A stretch of 64,000 bases of DNA from an uncultured Rubritalea sp. (GTDB lineage: Bacteria; Verrucomicrobiota; Verrucomicrobiia; Verrucomicrobiales; Akkermansiaceae). The DNA is taken from positions 38,243 to 102,242 of the forward strand of contig CAKZNV010000248.1 of assembly GCA_937132085.1 (NCBI GenBank). The letters run 5' to 3'. This document shows, in pieces, positions 4,908-18,227 of the stretch. Every line of letters begins with the position of its first letter. Within the stretch, counting starts at the first letter, position 1. Under the pieces are notes generated by a model. That model did no database searches, was not told the DNA's origin, and saw only the letters and a list, made by a program, of their open reading frames with translations. The position numbers and the translations under genes are program-made.

Positions 4908-7646
4908 ATGTCAGATCCACTGAAACCACAACACTTAGCGCCACTACCTGAGTCACTACGCAAGCAGCTTGAACAATTCAAGAAGCATCTCTGGCGCATA
5001 AAAATCACGGAAGCTGTCTTAGCAGGTATCTTAGGACTAGTTGCTTCATTCGCACTCGTGTTCGCACTCGACCGTATCTGGGATCTTTCTCCATTACTTA
5101 GAACAGTCATCCTTATTCTTGGTGTTTCACTATTTGCAGTCTTCGCCCCACTCTGGATCAATCGATGGGTATTTAAACACAGACGTGAAAATCAGTTAGC
5201 TAAACTCATCTCTAACCATTACCCAAACCTAGGTGACCGCCTTCTCGGTGTTGTCGAACTTCAGGATCAAAATGAGAACTCTAAAGCGCTTTCTCCTGAA
5301 CTCCGTGAGGCTGCAATGATCGCCGTAGCAAGCGATGCTAAATCTAGAGACCTAGATCTGGCGCTCTCATCCACTTGGCTCAAAAAACTCACCCTAGGTG
5401 TAGCGGGACTAGCTCTCATCGCAGGCACAGCCTTCATGATCTACCCTAATGCAGGTAAAAACGCTCTAAAGCGTTGGTTCATGCCACTTTCTGACACGGA
5501 GAGATTCACCTTCACTAAAGTAGACCTATCAGATATCCCTCAGCCTCTCTACGTCCCATTAGACGAACCCTTCACACTTCACATTCCACTCTCCTCTGAC
5601 ACTGAGAACAAACCAGAATTCACCGAGTCTCGCTACGAAACGAAAGGCAGCTACACGAAGTGGGAGAAATTTGCTCTCAACGCAAACGCTTACGATCTAA
5701 AGTTCAAAGGAAAAAGATCCAAGGGAGAAATTACCTTCAAACTAGGTGATGCAAACCACACTCTAGAAGTAATTCCTGTAAAGAGGCCAAAACTAGCAGG
5801 TATTAAAGGCCATATTACCTACCCTGAATACCTCCAGAGAACACCAATCACTGAAGATTTCTCTACTGGCCAAATCGACATCTTAGAAGGCAGTAAGCTA
5901 TCCATCATAGCTAAAGCAGACAGAAATCTAAAATCAGCGACTGTAGGACCACTCTCGATCGAACCATACATTGACCTATCAGACCTAGAGTCACTTGAAA
6001 TCCAAGGCATAGATCCAAACAATCTACCTGAGCCTACGTTTAAAGATCTCAACCACAAGATCAGCTCGGATAAAATCCTCGCTGACCCTATTACTATCTC
6101 TAAGAACTCACTCACATTACCGATCAAGTGGGTTGATGCATATGGCATCCACGGACTTAGAGAGTCAGAAATTAATATTTCACCAATCACAGACTCAGCA
6201 CCATCCACCTACATCCGTGGAGTTAAAAAGCAGATCTATATTCTCCACACTGAAGTCCTAGCACTAGGTTTAGTAGCTGAAGATGACTTCGGCATCAAAT
6301 CAGCGGGCTTCGATTGGGTCGGAGAATTCAATACTCCATCAGCAAATGCTCCAGCGAAAGGTGAACAAGAGTTCATTAAAGGTGATCCTTATAAAAAGAA
6401 TGTAGAGGACGAAATCTTGATGGACTTCGCAGCTAGAAACATCCCACCACAAAAACTGACGATCAAATCCTATGTAGACGACTACAATCCTGCTACTAAA
6501 CGTGTCTACTCTGAGCCTATCGAAGTCTTTCTCCTCTCAGAATCTGAACATGCTAACTATCAAAAAGAGCGCATCAAGGAGATCCAATCAGACCTAGAAG
6601 ATGTGATCCGTAAGGAGACAGAGCTACTTTACGAGAACAAAAGAATCGAAAAAGACCTCAAAGATCCTAAGAAAGCTGATGAAGCTAAGAAGAAACTAGC
6701 TGACCAGAAAGACAAGGAACTCGATAACAAAGAGGAGATGAAAAAGCTAAAAGAGAAGATGAAAGATGTTCTCAAGCAATCGATGAAAAACGATAGTATC
6801 GATTCTAAAACCCTCAAAGAAATGTCCGAGACTGCTCAGAAGCTTGAGAAGATGGAGCAAAAAGATATGGAAGACATTGCTAAGAAGCTTCAAGACGCTC
6901 AAAGCAATAAGAACTCCAAAGAAAAGACTGAGAAAGACCTTAAAGAAGCTATTAAAAAGCAGGAAAAACTCATCGAGGAGATGAAGGACACTGCTAAAAA
7001 GGCTGAAGAGGCTAATAAGAAACTCGAATCTAGCACCTTTGTTAATCGTCTCAAACAAGCAGCTGAAGAAGAAGATAGCATTCACTCTAACTTACTTGGC
7101 AACTGGGACCAACTTGGTAGCCGTAACTATTCTCAGCTAGATCCAGAGATTAAAGATCTAGCACAAGCCCTCTACTTACAACAACAGCAAGCATCATCAG
7201 ATATTCGCTGGATCCAGGAAGACTTGAAATTCTTCCACGCTCGCACTCAAAAAGAACAACATAAGAAGCTAATCGATCAGATGACTGAGGCTAACATCGA
7301 TGAGGGTATGTCCTTCCTTGAAAGCCGCTTAGAAAACAATCACACTTACGTTTCAGCAGCTAAAGCTAAATACTGGGCTAACCTCTACCGTGAATGGGCT
7401 AAAGAGCTCGACGGCGCTAAAGAAGACAAGCCACCAGGTGGCGGCGGCGAAGGTGGCGATCAAAACACAGAAGATCAAGACTTCGAGTTCATGATCAGAG
7501 TCATGAAAATGATTCAAAAAGAGCAAGCCATCCGTGCGCGCACTAGAGCACTAGAACAAAGTAGAAGAGACGCCACAAAGCAACTTCCTGCTGCACCAAG
7601 AACCAACCCTGGCTTTGAAGGCAATAATTTTCAAACAATCGAATAA
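4908..7646 (+). CDS. DUF4175-like membrane protein with long coiled coil
   Basis: 912 aa. Three transmembrane helices lie in the first 180 residues (about 33-55, 62-84, 155-177), in an arrangement typical of DUF4175 proteins (LGDRLLGVVEL after the second helix). A beta-rich extracytoplasmic region follows to about residue 530. Then comes a highly charged Lys/Glu coiled coil (about 535-700), a helical C-terminus and a Gly-rich linker (GGGGEGG). As I recall, DUF4175 genes in planctomycetes and verrucomicrobia sit in MoxR/DUF58/Bat-type loci; those partners are not in this window. It heads a same-strand run reaching 15217, suggesting a shared envelope role. Function unknown. Confidence 0.75.
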   Translation: MSDPLKPQHLAPLPESLRKQLEQFKKHLWRIKITEAVLAGILGLVASFALVFALDRIWDLSPLLRTVILILGVSLFAVFAPLWINRWVFKHRRENQLAKLISNHYPNLGDRLLGVVELQDQNENSKALSPELREAAMIAVASDAKSRDLDLALSSTWLKKLTLGVAGLALIAGTAFMIYPNAGKNALKRWFMPLSDTERFTFTKVDLSDIPQPLYVPLDEPFTLHIPLSSDTENKPEFTESRYETKGSYTKWEKFALNANAYDLKFKGKRSKGEITFKLGDANHTLEVIPVKRPKLAGIKGHITYPEYLQRTPITEDFSTGQIDILEGSKLSIIAKADRNLKSATVGPLSIEPYIDLSDLESLEIQGIDPNNLPEPTFKDLNHKISSDKILADPITISKNSLTLPIKWVDAYGIHGLRESEINISPITDSAPSTYIRGVKKQIYILHTEVLALGLVAEDDFGIKSAGFDWVGEFNTPSANAPAKGEQEFIKGDPYKKNVEDEILMDFAARNIPPQKLTIKSYVDDYNPATKRVYSEPIEVFLLSESEHANYQKERIKEIQSDLEDVIRKETELLYENKRIEKDLKDPKKADEAKKKLADQKDKELDNKEEMKKLKEKMKDVLKQSMKNDSIDSKTLKEMSETAQKLEKMEQKDMEDIAKKLQDAQSNKNSKEKTEKDLKEAIKKQEKLIEEMKDTAKKAEEANKKLESSTFVNRLKQAAEEEDSIHSNLLGNWDQLGSRNYSQLDPEIKDLAQALYLQQQQASSDIRWIQEDLKFFHARTQKEQHKKLIDQMTEANIDEGMSFLESRLENNHTYVSAAKAKYWANLYREWAKELDGAKEDKPPGGGGEGGDQNTEDQDFEFMIRVMKMIQKEQAIRARTRALEQSRRDATKQLPAAPRTNPGFEGNNFQTIE

Positions 7647-7679: not shown

Positions 7680-8060
7680 ATGAAAAAGACAATACTTATA
7701 ACCACATTTACAGCCCTCGCCTGCTGTGCTGTCAACGCTGGAGGTTTGAAAGATGATCTCAAGAAGAACAATAGTAAGACTCCTAAAATTGCTCCTAAAG
7801 AAATGCTTAAAAAGCACGCTAAGGATGCTACTAAAGTTGCCGGAGAACAAGACGAACTTTCTGCCGACGTGCAAGATCTTGTTCAGGAACAAACTGATCC
7901 TAAAGTAATCGAACTCCTCAACGCAGCTGAAGAGCTCATGGGTGAAGCCACTGAGCTTCTCGAAAACAAGAAAACTGACGGTGGCACTCTCGCTATCGAA
8001 ACAGAAATCATCGAGAAAATCTACGAAGCAGCTAAGAAAAAACAGTCCAATAGTAGCTGA
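7680..8060 (+). CDS. Small secreted protein, N-terminal part before in-frame UGA
   Basis: 126 aa with a signal peptide (residues 1-20, ending VNAGG) followed by a Lys/Glu-rich helical region. The gene stops at TGA 8058-8060, but the same reading frame continues without another stop to 8342. The two parts together would make a secreted protein of about 220 aa. Its position, 33 bp after the DUF4175 gene and before the alpha-toroid gene, suggests it belongs to the same operon. Either the UGA is a nonsense mutation or sequencing error, or the gene naturally ends here. No homologue recognised. Confidence 0.6.
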   Translation: MKKTILITTFTALACCAVNAGGLKDDLKKNNSKTPKIAPKEMLKKHAKDATKVAGEQDELSADVQDLVQEQTDPKVIELLNAAEELMGEATELLENKKTDGGTLAIETEIIEKIYEAAKKKQSNSS

Positions 8061-8078
8061 CAAAGCAGCAAAAAAGGC

Positions 8079-8342
8079 ATGGGTTCCATGCTCGAAATGA
8101 TGAAAGGAATGATGGATAAAAAGCCTGGAGACAAGAAGGGTGATAAGCCTGGAGATCAACCTGGTGAAGGTGGCGAAGGCACAACAGATAAAACCAGCAG
8201 TAAGATCGATGGTTCTGCTAACAACACCAAAGAAGAACGCCGAGTCCCTAAAAATCCGTCTGCTGCTAGCAGAACACTTCCTAGAGAAGAACAGAGAGCG
8301 ATTGATGCCTACAACAAGCAGAAAAAAGCCACAAAAAAGTAG
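8079..8342 (+). CDS. In-frame continuation of the small secreted protein (possible 3' half of a split gene)
   Basis: 87 aa from the first ATG after the UGA, low in complexity: Met-rich (MLEMMKGMMDKK), then Gly/Lys/Pro/Asp repeats (PGDKKGDKPGDQPGEGG), then a basic tail. It has no signal peptide, no ribosome site and no independent start context, and it is in the same frame as 7680-8060 with only six sense codons between the UGA and this ATG. I therefore read it as the C-terminal half of the same original gene. An independent small protein is less likely. The overlapping ORF at 8140-8352 is a frame shadow. Confidence 0.5.
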   Translation: MGSMLEMMKGMMDKKPGDKKGDKPGDQPGEGGEGTTDKTSSKIDGSANNTKEERRVPKNPSAASRTLPREEQRAIDAYNKQKKATKK

Positions 8343-8367
8343 AATACTTTAAAGTCACATTCACATA

Positions 8368-9408
8368 ATGCGAATCAAGAATATCACCAAAACATCTCGT
8401 CAATGGAGCACGTGCTTAGCACTTGCCCTAGGTCTGGGTGCCGTGCCATTGCTGCCTAATAATGCCAATGGCCAAAGCATTCCTCGCCGTGGCGTAGATG
8501 TCATCCCTAATGAGGTTGAACTAGCCTATAAGAAAGGTCTCAAATATTTAGCTAAATCACAGACCCCAGATGGATCGTTTGGTGGCGGTGGATTTGGTGC
8601 TCAGCCAGGACTTGTAGGCGTCTGCGTATTATCATTTCTAGCTCACGGCGAAGACCCTGCTCATGGTCAATATTCAAAGAATATTCAAAAGGGCATCGAC
8701 TTCCTCATCAAGTCACAGAATAAAACGACAGGTATGATGGGCTCTAGCATGTATAATCATGGATTCGCCACTCTCGCCCTCGCTGAAATCTATGGAATGG
8801 TAGAAGACAAACGTGTTGAGTCAGCTCTACAAAAAGCGGTGAACCTCATCGTTTCCTCTCAAGAACGTAACCCAACCAATGCTTGGAGATATGGCCCTGA
8901 CGACAAGACTGCTGATACAACAGTTGCAGGCTGTCAGATAGTTGCTCTCCTTGCAGCTAGAAACGCTGGTATTCCAGTGGCTGATAAGAACATTGATAAA
9001 GCCCTAGCATACATGGCTAGCTGTAGAGCATCTAATGGTGGCTACGGCTACACATCTAAAAACTCTCCACGCACCACACTTACTGCGATTGGTTCCCTTT
9101 GCCTTTCATTGGCAAAACAAAAGGATGACAAGGCGTTCCCTGTCATCACGAAGTTCCTGAAAAGCCGATTAGAAGACTCCTCCCATCACTACGTATTCTA
9201 CCACGAATACTACATGGCTCAGGCTCTTTTCCATGCTGATGAAGAACTATGGAAGATTTGGAATGAAAAGAACACAAAATTAATGACTGCTTCACAGATG
9301 CCTGATGGCAGCTGGAACGACAGCCGAATGGGCCAGTCTGGTGCTACTGGATTCGCTCTCCTTTCAATGGCTCTCAACTACAGATTCCTACCAATTTACG
9401 AAAAATAG
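8368..9408 (+). CDS. Secreted squalene-oxidase/prenyltransferase-repeat (alpha-toroid) protein
   Basis: 346 aa with a signal peptide (about 1-35, ending NANGQ) and repeated QW-type motifs of terpene-cyclase/prenyltransferase alpha-alpha toroids: TPDGSFGGGGFG near residue 66, SNGGYGYTS near 219 and MPDGSWND near 312. These family repeats form a barrel. No DxDD cyclase motif is seen and the protein is exported, so it is unlikely to be a hopene or squalene cyclase. A binding or structural role in the periplasm is more plausible (inference). It starts 25 bp after the small secreted gene, and its stop is two bases before the next ATG, so it is tightly coupled to the tandem paralogue array. Confidence 0.85.
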   Translation: MRIKNITKTSRQWSTCLALALGLGAVPLLPNNANGQSIPRRGVDVIPNEVELAYKKGLKYLAKSQTPDGSFGGGGFGAQPGLVGVCVLSFLAHGEDPAHGQYSKNIQKGIDFLIKSQNKTTGMMGSSMYNHGFATLALAEIYGMVEDKRVESALQKAVNLIVSSQERNPTNAWRYGPDDKTADTTVAGCQIVALLAARNAGIPVADKNIDKALAYMASCRASNGGYGYTSKNSPRTTLTAIGSLCLSLAKQKDDKAFPVITKFLKSRLEDSSHHYVFYHEYYMAQALFHADEELWKIWNEKNTKLMTASQMPDGSWNDSRMGQSGATGFALLSMALNYRFLPIYEK

Positions 9409-9410
9409 TC

Positions 9411-10886
9411 ATGCAATTATCTTCTTCAACGCTACCTCTCATTCTCACTCTTCTAGCCACTCCCCTCTGTAAATCAGATCAGAAGGATTTCATTAATTTT
9501 GAGAATGACGACACGCTACACGGATCATTTCAGGGGCTCACTACCAGTGGAAAAATCATCTGGAAAAGTCCACAGGCTAACAACAATATCGCTTTCTCTA
9601 CTGATGAACTAAGACAGATCGTCTTTAATAATGGTGAACTTAAAAAGCCATTCACACACACTAGCTACATCACTCTGACAAACCTTGATGTCATCCCAGG
9701 CAACATCGCTAAAATGGATGAGGGCTTTGTCACGGTTAAAACTGACTTTGCAGGAGAGATTAAAATCCCTAATGATCAAATTTCGAACATAACATTTCAG
9801 CCACTAGGTGACAAAATCCTCTACCGCGGTCCATACTCAGAAGAAGGTTGGACAGCTACACCATTTCAGTCGACCAAGACTGACGACAAGAAGTCTGACG
9901 AAGAAAAAAAACAGACTAAAAAGGAAGGATGGACATTCAACAGCTTCACTTGGAAGCATACAGGCACTCCTAGCCTATTGATGAGTAATTTGAAACTCCC
10001 AGATAAGTTTCGATTTACTTTTGACATGGATTCACAAAGCAACAGTTATATCAATCTCGTTGTTTTAGCTGACATGAATCCTCCTAAAGAGGAAGAAGCT
10101 AAGGATGAAAAAGCTCCTAAAGTGAAAAGAACCAATAGTGCTAGTGTTATAGCTAACGCGATAGGCACAGGTCTCTCTTTCCGTATGACTACTAGTTCAG
10201 CCTCACTCCTGTTCTATGGCTTCGATAAAGAAGGCGTAGCATACACTAAGACTCTAACAAATTTGATTCAACACCGTTCATACCAACCCAACTACACACA
10301 GAAAAACTTCTATGATGTCCGAGTTGATAAAGCCAATAATTCCGTCTTATTCTATAAATCAAAGGTTCTTATCGGACAATGGGACATTTCGAATATCGCT
10401 GACGAACTCAAAGGCGATAAACTAGGCTACTATGTTCAATACAACAACTCAAAGAAGGTGAACAAATTCACTGATATGACTCTAAGCTCTTGGAGTGGAG
10501 TCATTGACCCTGCTATCACTTTGGAGAATGACAACAGAGACATCGTTATGCTAGCTAATGGCACAGATAGGTTTTCAGGTAAAACTATTGGCATAAAAGA
10601 AAACATCTTAGACCTCAAAGGTCCATTTGCTGAATTAGCTATTCCTACTGATCAGATTCAAACACTTTCCTTTGCTAAGAAAAACCAAGCAGAGCCCGTT
10701 ACCCCTTCTAGTGGTGATGTTGCGATTAGATTCTATGGATCAGGAAAAATCACTGGGGCTCTCAGTAAAGGACCTGATGGCTCATTCTACCTAGAAAACC
10801 CAACGCTCGGCAAACTAAAGATTAGCTTCGACTACATCACATCCATTCAATTTTCAGATCTAGATTACATCTACGAGATCGAGTAA
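9411..10886 (+). CDS. Tandem paralogue 1: secreted NGD-module / LamG-like protein
   Basis: 491 aa, signal peptide at residues 1-22. First of four consecutive related genes. The layout is two short beta-modules (residues about 25-75 and 80-130), a jelly-roll, LamG-like central domain (about 175-365) closing with SSWSGV, and two more modules (about 372-425 and 435-490). Each module follows hydrophobic-NGD/T-x-hydrophobic-xG, a turn, then 'IP..I..I', for example LANGTDRFSGKTIG. This copy has an inserted Lys/Glu-rich segment before and inside the central domain. It begins 2 bp after the alpha-toroid gene. No catalytic motif is visible; carbohydrate or cell-wall binding is a guess from the fold. 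Confidence 0.7.
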   Translation: MQLSSSTLPLILTLLATPLCKSDQKDFINFENDDTLHGSFQGLTTSGKIIWKSPQANNNIAFSTDELRQIVFNNGELKKPFTHTSYITLTNLDVIPGNIAKMDEGFVTVKTDFAGEIKIPNDQISNITFQPLGDKILYRGPYSEEGWTATPFQSTKTDDKKSDEEKKQTKKEGWTFNSFTWKHTGTPSLLMSNLKLPDKFRFTFDMDSQSNSYINLVVLADMNPPKEEEAKDEKAPKVKRTNSASVIANAIGTGLSFRMTTSSASLLFYGFDKEGVAYTKTLTNLIQHRSYQPNYTQKNFYDVRVDKANNSVLFYKSKVLIGQWDISNIADELKGDKLGYYVQYNNSKKVNKFTDMTLSSWSGVIDPAITLENDNRDIVMLANGTDRFSGKTIGIKENILDLKGPFAELAIPTDQIQTLSFAKKNQAEPVTPSSGDVAIRFYGSGKITGALSKGPDGSFYLENPTLGKLKISFDYITSIQFSDLDYIYEIE

Positions 10887-10953
10887 CTTAGACAATTCGT
10901 CCACTCCTTCATTTAGTAACCACACTTTTTCATCTTCTTTAAAAAAGACACTC

Positions 10954-12270
10954 ATGCGTTCATTCATTACATTTTCAAGCATTATAGCCGCCCTATTTAT
11001 CGGCGTCACCGCTAGCTCAGCTCAACATAAAGTTACTCTAACAAATGGAGATCAGCTTTCAGGAAAGCTCATCGATAGCGATACTGAGGGGGTGATATTC
11101 CTCGAGTATCCAAATTCCAATAAGCCGATCAAACTGCTAGAATCATCTATTCAGAATATAAAGCTTAACAGCAAAAGCGTTCTCGCTGACGGAAAACACA
11201 AGGAGCGCATCAAGCTCGTTAATGGTGATGAATTCCCAATAAGTCTTACATCTTTAGATAAAGACACGGTCTCGTTTAAGACTAGTTACGCTGGGAGTCA
11301 CACTATTCCTAGAGCACAAGTCTCAGGTATTTACTTCAATAACCTTGCTGAAGACCTTCTTTATCAAGGACCAAATAAGCTTACAAATTGGAAGCAGTAT
11401 GGCGGAAAATGGGAAGTTGTAGAAAATAAACTCACTTCCGTCCAAAGAGGCAAGATTTCTAAAAACATCAATAACTTAACTGAGAACTTCAAGATCGAAT
11501 TCGTTTCTAGTTGGACAGAGGTTGCTCCAAATATGAGAATTTATTTCTCCACCACTTCTGGAGACATTAACAAGAAACAGGATTGTTACTACATGGAGAT
11601 CAATGTCAGTGGGCAACGACTTGTCAAAAAAACAAATAATCGACTCACCTTCATTGGCACTAATCTCGTCCAGGCTGATACCTACAAAAATAAATCTGCT
11701 AAGTTTGAAATATTTGTAGATCGTCAATCCAACGTAGTCACCCTCTTTATTGATGGTAAAAAAGTCAAAGAATTTAAGGACAAAGACGCGGCACCAAAAG
11801 GCTCACAGATCATCTTTGAATGCTCACAACGACATAATGAGAAAATCTCATTTGAAGATATCTCTATCTCAAGCTGGAATGGCATCGCTCCTTCTAATAA
11901 TAAAAAGAACGCTGAAGCTCTCAAAAAGAATGACCTCATTATGAACACTTCTAGCACTCAGATGGCTGGCTCTATTGATAAGATAGTGCGTTCCAATAAT
12001 GACCTTCAAGTTCATCTCAACATCCCATTTGCTAAGAAACCTAGTGTCATTTCGAGCTCTAAAATCCAACACATTCTCCTCCAAACAGCAGATAAAGCTG
12101 AAGGATTGAAAACGACTAAATTTGGAGCGACTCTATCAATTGGTGGTAAACTATCTTTCAACCAATCCAAAATTGCTGGAGACACCATGACCGTCAGCCA
12201 TCCCATCATTGGAGAGCTTAACATCCTTCTCTCTTCTCTCCACGAAGTGAAGAGAAATACTGAAAAGTAG
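10954..12270 (+). CDS. Tandem paralogue 2: secreted NGD-module / LamG-like protein
   Basis: 438 aa, signal peptide 1-23 (ending SSAQ). Same architecture as its neighbours. Module 1 is LTNGDQLSGKLIDSD, module 2 is LVNGDEFPISLTSLD ending IPRAQVSGI, then the junction LLYQGPNKLTNW that all four copies share in some form. A LamG-like core follows, with IFVDRQSNVVTLFIDGK and SSWNGI. The C-terminal modules are more diverged. It starts 67 bp after paralogue 1. Probably exported to periplasm or outer surface; function unknown. Confidence 0.7.
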   Translation: MRSFITFSSIIAALFIGVTASSAQHKVTLTNGDQLSGKLIDSDTEGVIFLEYPNSNKPIKLLESSIQNIKLNSKSVLADGKHKERIKLVNGDEFPISLTSLDKDTVSFKTSYAGSHTIPRAQVSGIYFNNLAEDLLYQGPNKLTNWKQYGGKWEVVENKLTSVQRGKISKNINNLTENFKIEFVSSWTEVAPNMRIYFSTTSGDINKKQDCYYMEINVSGQRLVKKTNNRLTFIGTNLVQADTYKNKSAKFEIFVDRQSNVVTLFIDGKKVKEFKDKDAAPKGSQIIFECSQRHNEKISFEDISISSWNGIAPSNNKKNAEALKKNDLIMNTSSTQMAGSIDKIVRSNNDLQVHLNIPFAKKPSVISSSKIQHILLQTADKAEGLKTTKFGATLSIGGKLSFNQSKIAGDTMTVSHPIIGELNILLSSLHEVKRNTEK

Positions 12271-12290
12271 AACGGACATCCACATCGAAG

Positions 12291-13739
12291 ATGAAAAAAT
12301 CAACAAAATGCGAAATCTACAGAACTGACCATCGAGTCAGCGCATTTTGTTTACTATTACTCTGCTTCACACTCCCGCTCCTGCCTCAGCTTGGGAACGC
12401 CCAAACTGAACCTACTGCATCGTTACCTAGTTCTGAACATAGTTATCGATTAGTATTCAAAAATGGAGACTCGATGCATGCAAAAAGACTCTCCACGTCT
12501 AATAAATCTGACGACTCCATCTCTATCGAATCTAGATATTTGTTAGAAACCGCAGACTTTTCAATATCACAACTCAAGAGCATTGAGTTACAACTCGCAG
12601 CACAACCAAATAGCAAATTCTCTCCAGAGCACCTCGCCACTATCACCATTAGCGTAGCTAACCCTAAAGATGAACTTCTGAAGATTACTGAGAGAATAGA
12701 AGGTCAAATTATAAAGCTCGATGAAAACTATGTTACTCTCAAAACTCATTTTGCGACTAATCTCACTATCCCAAGAACTGAAATTCAGGATATAGAAATT
12801 GAAGACCAAACAGGAATTCTTTTTAAGTCCCCACGTTCAATCGGCAACTGGAGAGTGCATGACCAAGCGAATCCCTCGTGGAAAATTCAGCACCAACAAT
12901 TCATCAGCACCAAACAACAATGTGAAATCTCTAAAGACATCAAGCTTCCTGACCTCGCACATATTAGCTTTGAAGTGGAACATCAGAAAACACGTAGGTT
13001 TTATCTCTACTTCTATGCTGCTCAAAATGCTGATGATGATGAAGAGAAAACGAACTACTACCAATTTGTCACCCAGACTGGAACCCACTTTATTCAGCGT
13101 GTCACCAATGGAGTCATCCATCCCTTACAGCGTAAAATAGACAGGAACGCACCTAGGATCCGTAGCTCTCGAAGAAAAAAGCTAAGCTACGATCTCTACC
13201 TTGATCGTGAAAATGGTCAATTCCACATCTATATTGATGGTAATTTCTATCGTTCATTTCATGATGAAAATCCACAAACTGCCACATTAGGAACGTCGAT
13301 TCATCTCGTCTCTAAATCAGCTCCTCACATCATCTCAAATTTCAAAGTCAGAAGCTGGAGTGGAGCCCTAAACATGTCCACGCAGCTGGAACAAGATGAC
13401 ACGGACATCACCCCTAATCAGATCAAGCTTCACAACGGAGATTCAATCACAGGAACCACCAACAGCATTAAAAGTGAAGCCATCATGGTAGAAACTCAAT
13501 TCGGACTCCTAACAGTCCCACTAAAAGGAGTTTCGAAAATCCATAGCTCTACAGATAAAAAAACTACTCCTCTCAAGTTAACAAACACGCACATCAAAGC
13601 TAGCTTCCTAAACGAGGATTTTATCATACTAAAACTCAATAGCATCAAAGGCTATCAACTCAACGCCTCGCATCGAATCTTCGGAGAAAACACATACGAT
13701 TTGAGAGCATTCTCGAAAATTGAATTTAATCTTCAGTAA
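12291..13739 (+). CDS. Tandem paralogue 3: secreted NGD-module / LamG-like protein
   Basis: 482 aa with a longer basic N-region before the signal helix (about 17-37, ending GNAQ). Modules: FKNGDSMHAKRLS, then a second ending IPRTEIQDIEI, a LamG-like core (YLDRENGQFHIYIDGNFY, RSWSG), then LHNGDSITGTTN and a last module ending FGENTYDLRAFSKIEF. This copy and the next are the most alike of the four, sharing that C-terminal FGE..(Y/F)DLRAF block, which suggests the most recent duplication. It starts 20 bp after paralogue 2, so cotranscription is likely. Confidence 0.7.
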   Translation: MKKSTKCEIYRTDHRVSAFCLLLLCFTLPLLPQLGNAQTEPTASLPSSEHSYRLVFKNGDSMHAKRLSTSNKSDDSISIESRYLLETADFSISQLKSIELQLAAQPNSKFSPEHLATITISVANPKDELLKITERIEGQIIKLDENYVTLKTHFATNLTIPRTEIQDIEIEDQTGILFKSPRSIGNWRVHDQANPSWKIQHQQFISTKQQCEISKDIKLPDLAHISFEVEHQKTRRFYLYFYAAQNADDDEEKTNYYQFVTQTGTHFIQRVTNGVIHPLQRKIDRNAPRIRSSRRKKLSYDLYLDRENGQFHIYIDGNFYRSFHDENPQTATLGTSIHLVSKSAPHIISNFKVRSWSGALNMSTQLEQDDTDITPNQIKLHNGDSITGTTNSIKSEAIMVETQFGLLTVPLKGVSKIHSSTDKKTTPLKLTNTHIKASFLNEDFIILKLNSIKGYQLNASHRIFGENTYDLRAFSKIEFNLQ

Positions 13740-13798
13740 TCACCACTCTATAACACTTAAAAATTAAAGTCTAACGACTAACTTCACCATAAATCACC

Positions 13799-15217
13799 AT
13801 GATAAAATCTATCACAACATCACTCTTACTCTACGCCGCATCACTAGGAAGCATCATGGCTCAAGATGAGCAGCCACTGTCAGCGAAGCTGAACTTCCTC
13901 AATGGTGACACGTTCTCAGGACAAATCATAAAATGGGACACAGAAAAAATTCAAATCAAGAGCGCGTTCCTAGTAGACCCAGCTACCTTCCCTACTGCAA
14001 ATCTCGTCGACGTCATTCTAGAGAGTGACGGCACCCCGATTATCCAAAAAGATGATCCTAATGCGAAAGAGAAGGCTATCACCACCATTAAAATGAATAA
14101 TCGCTTCAACATGTCTGATGAACATGATGTGATCAAAGGTGAATTTAAGCAGATAGATGATGATTCTGTCACCATCGACACTGCATACGCGGGTCAGCTA
14201 AAGATCGATCGAAAGATGATCAACAAACTTTGGATTGAGACTGAGTCAGGTTATATCTACAGTGGCCCAAACAACTTAAAAGAATGGCATAACAACGAGC
14301 CTAGCCAAGTATGGAGATACACCAACAACTCCCTTATTGCTGAAGCTACAGCAAGCATTTCAAAAGATGTAAAGCTACCAAATCAAGCTGTGATAAGCAT
14401 GGATCACGAATGGAAAGGTAATCCCTATTTTTCTACTAAACTCTACTCTAGCGATCATGAGCAGTCTCGTCCTGACTTCCACTACGAATTCGTTGCCCGC
14501 TCTGGTAGCCTATATATCCAAAAAGTATTTGAAAATAGAACAACTCGACTCAACACAAAAAACCAACTAGGCAATCGTCCTTTTGGCCGTGGAAGAGTTT
14601 TAAATAACGCGAAAAGTGCTCATTACGACATCTATATGGATATCGATAAAGGCATTTTTCATATCTACTTAAATGGCAAGCTCTTTGGAACTTACACGGA
14701 CCCATCCCCTAAACCTGAAAAATTTGGAACTGCAATACACCTCTTTAACCATAATAATTCTAAATCAAAGATCTCTAAAATAAGAATCAATGCCTGGAAC
14801 GGAAATGAACCACAAAATGAAGATGACTCAGCTCTAAAGGCTCTCAAAGGTGAAGGTCAAAAAGTGCTACTTCGTAACGGAGACGCTGTGCTCGGTCAGA
14901 TTGGTGCAATCAAAAATGGCTTCATTGAAGTTGTTACTGAATTTGGCCCACTGAAAATTCCAGTGATAGGTATGAGAACAATTGACCTCTCTGGATCAGA
15001 GAAGCACAAACCTAAAAGATATAAGGAAGACATCAAAGCATGGTTCAATGAACAAGAATGGGTCATCCTTAAGCCGATAGAAATTAACGGCAATAAACTC
15101 AAAGCTTTCCACCAAGCATTTGGTGAAAAAGAATTTGATCTTAGAGCATTCACACGTATCGACCTTCACGTCAATAATGAGAAGATCAATAGTCTTCGTA
15201 AGGTTGAAGAATGGTAA
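13799..15217 (+). CDS. Tandem paralogue 4: secreted NGD-module / LamG-like protein
   Basis: 472 aa, signal peptide 1-21 (ending SIMAQ). Modules: FLNGDTFSGQIIKWD, then a second with SVTIDTAYAGQLKI and the shared YSGPNNLKEW junction, the LamG-like core (YMDIDKGIFHIYLNGKLF, NAWNGNEP), LRNGDAVLGQIGAI ending IPVIGMRTI, and the C-terminal FGEKEFDLRAFTRIDL block shared with paralogue 3. It is the last gene of the array; a weak hairpin follows at 15243. Function unknown. Confidence 0.7.
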   Translation: MIKSITTSLLLYAASLGSIMAQDEQPLSAKLNFLNGDTFSGQIIKWDTEKIQIKSAFLVDPATFPTANLVDVILESDGTPIIQKDDPNAKEKAITTIKMNNRFNMSDEHDVIKGEFKQIDDDSVTIDTAYAGQLKIDRKMINKLWIETESGYIYSGPNNLKEWHNNEPSQVWRYTNNSLIAEATASISKDVKLPNQAVISMDHEWKGNPYFSTKLYSSDHEQSRPDFHYEFVARSGSLYIQKVFENRTTRLNTKNQLGNRPFGRGRVLNNAKSAHYDIYMDIDKGIFHIYLNGKLFGTYTDPSPKPEKFGTAIHLFNHNNSKSKISKIRINAWNGNEPQNEDDSALKALKGEGQKVLLRNGDAVLGQIGAIKNGFIEVVTEFGPLKIPVIGMRTIDLSGSEKHKPKRYKEDIKAWFNEQEWVILKPIEINGNKLKAFHQAFGEKEFDLRAFTRIDLHVNNEKINSLRKVEEW

Positions 15218-15303: not shown

Positions 15304-17571
15304 ATGCAAAATGAAGATAAACCGATTAGCGTAAAGAAACCTAAAACATGGGCTGCAGGTCGCCCAGCGGTGACCTCCTCGATGAAGCAAATCATCTCCA
15401 CCGCAGGATTGGTGCGTGGAACTAAAGCTCTTCTAGAATTAAATCAGACTGATGGATTCGATTGCCCTAGCTGCGCCTGGCCTGACCCAGATGATCATCG
15501 TGCTACTACCGAGTTTTGCGAAAACGGTGCCAAAGCAGTCGCTTCTGAAGCTACTTCTAAAATAGTCGATGAACGATTCTTCCGCTCCCACTCTATCGAA
15601 CAACTCCAAGCTGAGAGCGACTACTGGCATGACCAACAAGGCCGCCTAACCAGCCCAATGGTGCTCCGTGAAGGCGACACTCATTATCAACCAATCAGCT
15701 GGGACGATACGTTCGCATTGATCGCAGATGAACTAAATTCTCTCTCTCACCCTGACGATGCCGCATTTTACACCTCAGGCAGAGCTAGCAATGAAGCAGC
15801 ATTTCTCTACCAACTTTTCGTCCGTGTATTCGGCACAAATAACCTCCCCGATTGCTCTAACATGTGCCACGAATCCAGCGGCTCTGGACTCGGTGCCTCC
15901 ATCGGCATCGGTAAAGGCACAGTTTCGCTCGAAGACATCCAGACCTCAGACACCATCATCGTAGTTGGTCAGAACCCCGGCACCAACCACCCTCGCATGT
16001 TGGCTGCACTCGAAGACTGTGTGAACCAAGGCGGCAAAGTAATAGCTGTCAATCCACTCATCGAAGCTGGTCTCCTAGCCTTCGCCCATCCTCAGAAAAT
16101 CTCTGGCATGTTCAACCGTGCCACACCACTCACTTCTCAATATCTGCAAGTCAGAGTCAATGGAGACATGGCTCTCTTCCGAGGCATTGCCAAATCTCTC
16201 TTCGAACGTGAAGAGCAAGCTCCGGGAACAATCCTCGATCACACCTTTATTGGCGAACACACTACTCAGGCAGCTGAATATGAAGCCGCCGTCGAAGCTA
16301 CTTCTTGGCAGCAGATCATCGATGACTCAGGCATACCTCGTGAAGAAATCGAGAAGCTTACTGACACCATTCTAGACCGAAATCAAAAACTCATCACCTG
16401 CTGGGCAATGGGAGTCACTCAGCAGAAAAACGCAGTCGACACCATCCGTGAAATCGTCAACGTCCACCTACTCATCGGTGCAATCGGCCGTGACGGAGCT
16501 GGACTCTGCCCAGTCCGAGGCCACTCCAATGTCCAAGGCGACCGCACCATGGGAATCTTCGAGAAACTCCCTGAATGGTTCCACCTATCTCTAGAAAAAC
16601 ACTTCAGATTCGAATCCCCACGTAAACATGGATACGACGTAGTGGAAGCGATCCATGCCATGCACTCTGGCGATCTTAAAGTCTTCATCGCTCTCGGCGG
16701 AAATTTCCTCCAAGCTGCACCAGACACCGACTATACCGCTGAGGCTCTGAGAAAGACTAATCTCACCTGTCACATCGCTACCAAGCTCAACCGCTCTCAC
16801 CTCGTCACCGGAAAAACTGGCCTCATCCTCCCCTGTCTAGGGCGCTCAGACCGCGATACTCAGGCATCTGGCGACCAATTCGTCACCTGCGAAAATTCCA
16901 TGGGAGTCGTCCACAAATCGAAAGGCAAACTAACACCAAACTCGGATCTCATGATGTCAGAGCCTATGATTATTGCTCGCATGGCAGAAGCAACCCTCGG
17001 TGATACCGATACCATTAAATGGACAGAGCTAGGCGATGACTATGATCGCATTCGTGACCACATCGCTGCCGTCATCCCAGGATTCGAAGACTTCAACCAT
17101 CGTGTCAGTGAGCCGGGAGGATTCTACTTACCCAATGCACCGAAACAACGCATTTGGAGCACCGATACCCAAAAAGCTAATTTCAACCCAGCTGCACTTA
17201 GTATCTTCAACGTCGCCCCTGGCCACCTAGCCCTACAGACACTACGCAGCCACGATCAGTATAACACCACCATCTACGGCCTAGATGATCGCTACCGTGG
17301 CATAGGAAATAACCGCATGATCGTCTTCCTCAACCCTGACGACATGAAAGACCGAGGTATCAAACCACTCCAGCCACTGCGTATCACCAGCCATTTCCAA
17401 GGCGAACTCAGACATGCGGATAATTTCAAAGCCATCCCATACGACATGCCGAGAGGAGCAGCTGCAGCCTACTTCCCAGAGGCAAATGGACTAGTTCCGA
17501 TCAACTCTACAGCCGATATCTCAAACACACCGACCAGTAAAGGCATCGAAATCTCACTCGAAATCCTCTAA
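15304..17571 (+). CDS. FdhF/YdeP-family molybdopterin oxidoreductase
   Basis: 755 aa, the usual length for YdeP-type enzymes of the DMSO-reductase/formate-dehydrogenase superfamily. The N-terminus has the YdeP hallmark FDCPSCAWPDPDDHR near residue 52, a Cys pair with a third Cys in TEFCENGAKAV. The molybdopterin region shows SNMCHESSG near residue 188, where the Cys is a candidate Mo ligand (inference). VGQNPGTNHPRML, HSNVQGDRTMGI and the C-terminal aspartate-decarboxylase-like fold (NRMIVFLNPDDM) fit the family. It has no signal peptide, so it is cytoplasmic. Substrate is unknown; E. coli YdeP is linked to acid resistance. Eleven bases separate it from ispD, but the two roles are unrelated. 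Confidence 0.92.
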   Translation: MQNEDKPISVKKPKTWAAGRPAVTSSMKQIISTAGLVRGTKALLELNQTDGFDCPSCAWPDPDDHRATTEFCENGAKAVASEATSKIVDERFFRSHSIEQLQAESDYWHDQQGRLTSPMVLREGDTHYQPISWDDTFALIADELNSLSHPDDAAFYTSGRASNEAAFLYQLFVRVFGTNNLPDCSNMCHESSGSGLGASIGIGKGTVSLEDIQTSDTIIVVGQNPGTNHPRMLAALEDCVNQGGKVIAVNPLIEAGLLAFAHPQKISGMFNRATPLTSQYLQVRVNGDMALFRGIAKSLFEREEQAPGTILDHTFIGEHTTQAAEYEAAVEATSWQQIIDDSGIPREEIEKLTDTILDRNQKLITCWAMGVTQQKNAVDTIREIVNVHLLIGAIGRDGAGLCPVRGHSNVQGDRTMGIFEKLPEWFHLSLEKHFRFESPRKHGYDVVEAIHAMHSGDLKVFIALGGNFLQAAPDTDYTAEALRKTNLTCHIATKLNRSHLVTGKTGLILPCLGRSDRDTQASGDQFVTCENSMGVVHKSKGKLTPNSDLMMSEPMIIARMAEATLGDTDTIKWTELGDDYDRIRDHIAAVIPGFEDFNHRVSEPGGFYLPNAPKQRIWSTDTQKANFNPAALSIFNVAPGHLALQTLRSHDQYNTTIYGLDDRYRGIGNNRMIVFLNPDDMKDRGIKPLQPLRITSHFQGELRHADNFKAIPYDMPRGAAAAYFPEANGLVPINSTADISNTPTSKGIEISLEIL

Positions 17572-17582
17572 TTACTAAACAC

Positions 17583-18227
17583 ATGCTCTCCGTAATTATT
17601 GTAGCAGCTGGCTCTAGCAGAAGAATGGGCTTTGATAAGCTCATGGCTCCGCTAAATGGCAAACCAGTCCTCCATCACACTCTCACAGCACTACTCACCG
17701 CTGCAGAAGTAGGTGAAGTCATCCTCGTCAGCACTCAGGAACGCTACGATGAACTCAACATCAGCAACCCAAATCTCAAGCTCGTCTCAGGCGGTTCAGA
17801 GCGTCACGACTCAGTCGCTAACGGAATAGCTGCCATATCAGCTGACAGTAGCTACATTGCAGTCCACGACGGAGCACGACCACTCATCACTCACGAACAG
17901 ATCACCAATGTGCTAAACTCTGCCAAGCAACATGGAGCAGCCACATCAGCCAGAAAAATCACTGAGACCGTCAAACGCTCGAACGATCAGCAATTCGCCA
18001 TCGAATCCGTCAGCCGAGAAAACCTCTGGCTCATGGAAACCCCACAAATCTTCAAAGCCGACCTCCTGCGCAAAGCCTATCAGCACGTCAAAGACTCCAG
18101 TGCTCTAGTCACAGACGAAGTCTCCGCTCTAGAACTCATCGGCATCCCCACCTTCCTAGCAGAAAACGCCACCCCAAACCCAAAGATCACCTTCCCCCAC
18201 GATCTAGTAATCTTAGAAGAATCCTAA
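17583..18227 (+). CDS. ispD: 2-C-methyl-D-erythritol 4-phosphate cytidylyltransferase
   Basis: 214 aa enzyme of the non-mevalonate isoprenoid pathway. It joins CTP and MEP to give CDP-ME in the cytoplasm. The nucleotide-binding N-terminus VAAGSSRRMGFDKLMAPLNG has the Gly-rich loop with catalytic Arg and Lys. VHDGARP near residue 97 and VTDEVSALE near 178 are further IspD signatures. The length is slightly short of the typical 225-235 aa but complete. ispF, often fused or adjacent, is not nearby. It starts 11 bp after the YdeP-like gene with no Shine-Dalgarno. Confidence 0.95.
   Translation: MLSVIIVAAGSSRRMGFDKLMAPLNGKPVLHHTLTALLTAAEVGEVILVSTQERYDELNISNPNLKLVSGGSERHDSVANGIAAISADSSYIAVHDGARPLITHEQITNVLNSAKQHGAATSARKITETVKRSNDQQFAIESVSRENLWLMETPQIFKADLLRKAYQHVKDSSALVTDEVSALELIGIPTFLAENATPNPKITFPHDLVILEES

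Follow-up and report, generated by a model that had tools for sequence, protein, structure and literature searches.

The window, i.e. the whole 64,000-nucleotide stretch of DNA analysed here, from an uncultured Rubritalea sp., carries a tightly packed operon encoding the proteins PA4175, SM, PT and the four related proteins N1–N4 (Table 1).

Gene content and protein architecture

Table 1. Genes of the operon in the window and the main features of their products.
Gene	Coordinates	Strand	Product
PA4175	4908..7646	+	912-aa membrane protein, first operon gene; two N-terminal TM-like segments (hydropathy, composition)
SM	7680..8060	+	126 aa; probably exported small protein (hydrophobic N-terminus); follows PA4175 in the conserved order
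PT	8368..9408	+	346-aa secreted alpha/alpha-toroid, prenyltransferase/squalene-cyclase-like (PF00432, PF13243)
N1	9411..10886	+	491 aa; barrel-barrel-jelly roll-barrel-barrel; ortholog group N1
N2	10954..12270	+	438 aa; predicted barrels 25-70 and 84-127, jelly roll 135-307, barrels 327-375 and 390-434; ortholog group N2
N3	12291..13739	+	482 aa; extra, fast-diverging intact copy inside the N4 clade
N4	13799..15217	+	472 aa; predicted barrels 27-74 and 93-148, jelly roll 152-332, barrels 354-396 and 412-455; ortholog group N4

PA4175 contains a Lys/Glu-rich, coiled-coil-like stretch at about residues 556–720, and a distant ortholog matches DUF4175 below the cut-off (E 1.2e-4, 20.7 bits vs 27.3). 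The squalene-cyclase matches of PT cover the repeat region only, and because the DxDD catalytic motif was found in 0/26 PT orthologs, an active terpene cyclase was ruled out for this protein. Between SM and PT, the window has a gap of 307 nt (8061–8367), compared with a family median of about 7 nt; in other genomes SM frequently has a greater length. Immediately 3′ of N4 (15304–18227) lie genes for a molybdopterin oxidoreductase and for IspD, which are kept there only in the closest Rubritalea-like genomes. Rfam and tRNA scans across the window returned no matches, and a promoter/terminator scan gave a promoter count about equal to that of shuffled sequence.

All-against-all BLASTP of N1–N4 returned significant matches for 6/6 pairs (E 4e-8 to 3e-54, identity 22–29%). 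Family profiles aligned over nearly the full length, with 413 columns between N4 and N1 (E 5e-58) and 405 columns between N4 and N2 (E 7.5e-58), compared with a probability of 0.6% for the N4 profile against that of the neighbouring PT, used as a negative control. Profiles of the individual modules also matched each other, with probabilities of 76–100% for the majority of pairs and weaker values for several involving M4 or N1 M1; the jelly-roll control gave 0–2%. Since the BLASTP, family-profile and module-profile matches all stand against low-scoring controls, the resemblance among N1–N4 is not due to chance, and the original prediction of four paralogous ORFs of 438–491 aa at 9411–15217 was confirmed, the four being full-length homologues. 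Among the proteins of this genome, only N1–N4 were matched by the module profile at meaningful E-values.

AlphaFold models built with orthologs for N2 (pLDDT 89.8) and N4 (pLDDT 88.4) predict a signal peptide, two barrels, a concanavalin-A-like jelly roll, a short helix and two further barrels. Judging from the strand pattern in the models, the N2 and N4 modules would be small 5-stranded, SH3/Sm-like barrels with a short helix before the last strand; at the sequence level the N-protein barrels gave weak matches only (Hfq, Hfq_1, Myosin SH3, RimP C-terminal domain and YajC). The originally proposed secreted, modular design with one common architecture and a central jelly roll was borne out in N1–N4, export of the operon proteins being judged solely from N-terminal hydrophobicity. 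Describing the modules as 'NGD' modules was half right: four related modules are present, but the literal NGD is degenerate, reading NDD and NLD in N1 and being absent from module 2 of N3 and of N4. Likewise, the FGE..(Y/F)DLRAF block, which had been taken as distinctive of copies 3 and 4, turned out to be the N4-clade form of module 4, a module also carried by N1 and N2. The barrels are on average better conserved than the jelly roll in N1 and N4, with a slight difference in N2. Foldseek matches to the botulinum/tetanus binding domain were rejected (TM about 0.3, rmsd near 20 Å), only the jelly-roll fold being shared.

Neither Pfam nor NCBIfam holds a model that names the complete N protein, the structural search with the N models found no solved structure matching a whole N protein, and a limited open-access literature search returned no description of the operon. 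The view that the family is undescribed therefore stood, as no curated family names the whole protein, with the PF06439 match of N2 discussed below as a partial exception. The N-terminal NGD-type barrel module of N2 resembles two NCBIfam families from Leptospira, LB_137 and the LA_0442/LA_0875 N-terminal domain, which are matched at E <= 0.01 by 15/53 and 13/53 N2 orthologs, respectively; however, N2 scores 21.9 bits against LB_137, whose family cut-off is 200, and the remainder of the protein is unlike.

Operon order and ortholog groups in Akkermansiaceae

In the operons recovered by whole-genome and named-record searches, the gene order PA4175-SM-PT-N1-N2-N4 recurs almost everywhere in Akkermansiaceae with little variation. 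It is shared by the 80 loci with both PA4175 and PT (a count in which some genomes entered by two routes), which include Rubritalea, Roseibacillus, Haloferula and Akkermansia, and the median gaps at most junctions are −4 to −19 nt, i.e. overlapping or near-zero. In one genome of the same taxonomic order, PT is followed by a 1300-aa N-like protein (L066:4450-8352) with a C-terminal thioredoxin/AhpC-like domain at about residues 1155–1284.

In a tree of 81 proteins, N1 (98) and N4 (97) each formed one supported clade spanning the family. For the N2 label, two changes were required, since four long-branch rows fall outside; these come from divergent genomes, and their labels and placement are unsure. 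N3 was nested in a Rubritalea subclade of N4 on a branch of 1.53, compared with 0.56 for N4, and was absent from the other sampled genomes of the genus, which carry three N copies except for one genome with a second N1–N2 pair (L039/L075) and one in which two copies were recognised (L044). Overall, N copy number ranges from 1 to 5, with four copies in genome G079. N1, N2 and N4 occupy three paralogous positions of ancient origin in the operon, and N3 is an added N4-type duplicate. Given the tree, the conserved order and the three copies in most genomes of the genus, the array is an old operon plus one extra copy; a recent four-copy expansion is ruled out by the tree.

Linkage and co-occurrence with MoxR-Bat genes

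In distant Verrucomicrobiota classes, the PA4175-PT-N genes directly continue a MoxR AAA+ ATPase-DUF58-BatA-VWA (X750) operon. The MoxR/DUF58/BatA/X750 genes lie upstream of PA4175-PT-N, fully or partly intact, at loci L172, L180, L181, L190, L192, L193 and L195; MoxR adjoins the DUF58/BatA/X750 genes in genome G115, and DUF58 and BatA N-terminal domain proteins were also seen in G068 and G063. The distant operons continue with a fused PA4175-SM and with PT, which is followed by between one and four N genes, in some cases fused. Since PA4175 and SM form a single ORF of 1020–1152 aa in several distant loci (L156, L158-L162, L165 and L172), the two appear to be split in Akkermansiaceae.

The genome that contains the window encodes the orthologous MoxR-DUF58-BatA-X750 set, on contig C48 rather than on the contig of the operon, with matches above cut-off to AAA_3 (209 bits), PF01882 (DUF58, 161 bits) and PF07584 (BatA, 65.8 bits). 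The X750 protein of this set has the MIDAS 'DGSGSM' and is 33–37% identical to the distant X750 proteins over about 750 aa. In another Rubritalea genome (G004), the two halves lie about 390 kb apart on contig C1 (X750 at 667 kb, N4 at 1,060 kb). On contig C46 of the window's genome (locus L184) there is a further MoxR-DUF58-BatA-X750 set, diverged from the first, and after it a gene with weak similarity to PA4175 (40 bits).

Among 145 genomes of the phylum, PT and X750 were both present in 24 and both absent in 121, with none holding one alone (24/0/0/121, Fisher 6e-28), and N agreed with PT or X750 in 142/145 (22/1/2/120, Fisher 1e-22), where the tests ignore the shared ancestry of the genomes and the cut-offs (E<1e-95 for PT, E<1e-200 for X750 and E<1e-40 for N) were set after the distribution was seen. 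The exceptions were G153, with N present and strong PT absent, G038, in which a weak N-like 1257-aa protein adjoins PT, and G178, in which PT is close to a contig end. Solo N genes or N-N fusions in varied contexts, with PT not adjacent, were observed in other classes (L157, L163, L166 and L168-L171), so N genes also occur outside the operon.

Candidate function and alternative readings

We lean towards reading N1–N4 as the exported components of an old envelope system, found throughout the family, in which a Bat-type MoxR/VWA machine assembles or controls an N–PT complex. The cellular location, complex formation and biochemical role of N and PT are what we infer from the genes, and their part as exported client or scaffold of MoxR/VWA is suggested by analogy. 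Like other MoxR/VWA pairs, MoxR and the membrane VWA proteins would use ATP to drive assembly or activation, and PA4175/SM could relay this action across the inner membrane. On the far side, in the periplasm or at the outer membrane, PT and the N proteins would then build a hetero-oligomeric scaffold in which each position is filled by a different N subunit, and the jelly roll would probably bind an envelope glycan or protein partner, with no enzyme role required. The closest known arrangement is the Bat (Bacteroides aerotolerance) operon, which the distant-class operons resemble in combining MoxR, DUF58, a BatA N-terminal-domain protein and a further VWA protein; in contrast to Bat operons, they extend into PA4175(+SM), the toroid PT and the N proteins, the system is split over two loci in Akkermansiaceae, and BatC (TPR) and BatD had no Pfam match among the operon members scanned. 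For Bat proteins a periplasmic complex has been proposed, but the analogy gives no firm function, because deleting them in Leptospira biflexa left growth and stress phenotype unchanged (PMC3557215). As for the proposed action, a MoxR ATPase and a VWA adaptor mature dedicated complexes in NorQ/NorD (PMC9976466) and RavA/ViaA (PMC3893208); unlike those pairs, the present system has membrane VWA proteins and exported partners. A limited open-access search found no experiment on an N/PT complex or phenotype.

The main rival to the scaffold/client reading takes the N proteins for lectins of the cell surface or periplasm, whose jelly roll binds glycan, whose barrels are spacers and whose copies differ in specificity. 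The best single-domain fold matches of the jelly roll are indeed carbohydrate-binding, with CBM66 as the nearest fold (TM 0.66–0.73), N2 matches PF06439 (28.4 bits vs a cut-off of 26.8), and glycan-degrading lifestyles are common in the group. Against this, PF06439 was detected at E <= 0.01 in 2/22 N2 orthologs and in no N4 ortholog. In the window itself, N1, N3 and N4 do not reach its gathering score. The N jelly roll shares its fold with PF06439 and CBM66 concanavalin-like domains and differs from them in being flanked by four barrels, the sequence match being marginal and confined to few orthologs. At a conservation of at least 80%, the jelly-roll positions are for the most part Trp, Gly and further residues with a likely structural role; for the originally suggested glycan binding, the CBM66-like fold speaks in favour, but these positions do not. 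The N copies are moreover fixed by position rather than proliferating, they are linked to MoxR-Bat genes, and glycoside-degrading enzymes were not noticed beside the operon, so that we regard a lectin function as a rather unlikely, though serious, explanation. Far less probable is an enzymatic role for the N proteins, as 3-keto-disaccharide hydrolases (PF06439): the N2 score and the presence of 3u1x, a structure of this type, among the structural matches of the jelly roll point in that direction, but most orthologs fall below the PF06439 level, and the jelly-roll positions of at least 80% conservation showed no Asp/Glu/His cluster resembling a catalytic site. A lineage-specific expansion under diversifying or dosage selection, as the original prediction had read the array, could draw on the extra, fast-diverging N3 and on the variable copy number described above, including the second N1–N2 pair. 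This too appears improbable, since three of the four copies are ancient orthologs in an order fixed family-wide, and the ortholog tree partly refutes it; the step from the array to selection for diversity or dosage was not supported.

MoxR-Bat systems are widespread, and we know of no work that has resolved their targets. The N/PT proteins, a fixed exported set whose presence and absence across the phylum match those of the MoxR-Bat machine, are a concrete candidate client. Extending the envelope-system reading, we tentatively propose a previously undescribed seven-part Verrucomicrobiota machine (MoxR-DUF58-BatA-VWA/X750-PA4175/SM-toroid-N), in which an ATP-driven inner-membrane MoxR/VWA complex would build or operate an exported hetero-oligomeric scaffold consisting of a new multi-barrel protein family; if true, Bat systems would thereby gain a concrete exported client. 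Akkermansia is a human gut bacterium, and because the N/PT system occurs in Akkermansia muciniphila records and is missing from some Akkermansia-like genomes, the question is testable in a studied gut organism. Five genomes of genus g3 are without PT, X750 and N, which may reflect one single loss event; the genus is Akkermansia-like, its N4 protein sharing 67% identity with that of an A. muciniphila record. Of the A. muciniphila records, L148 has two N genes after the PT position and L149 is truncated after the first N gene.
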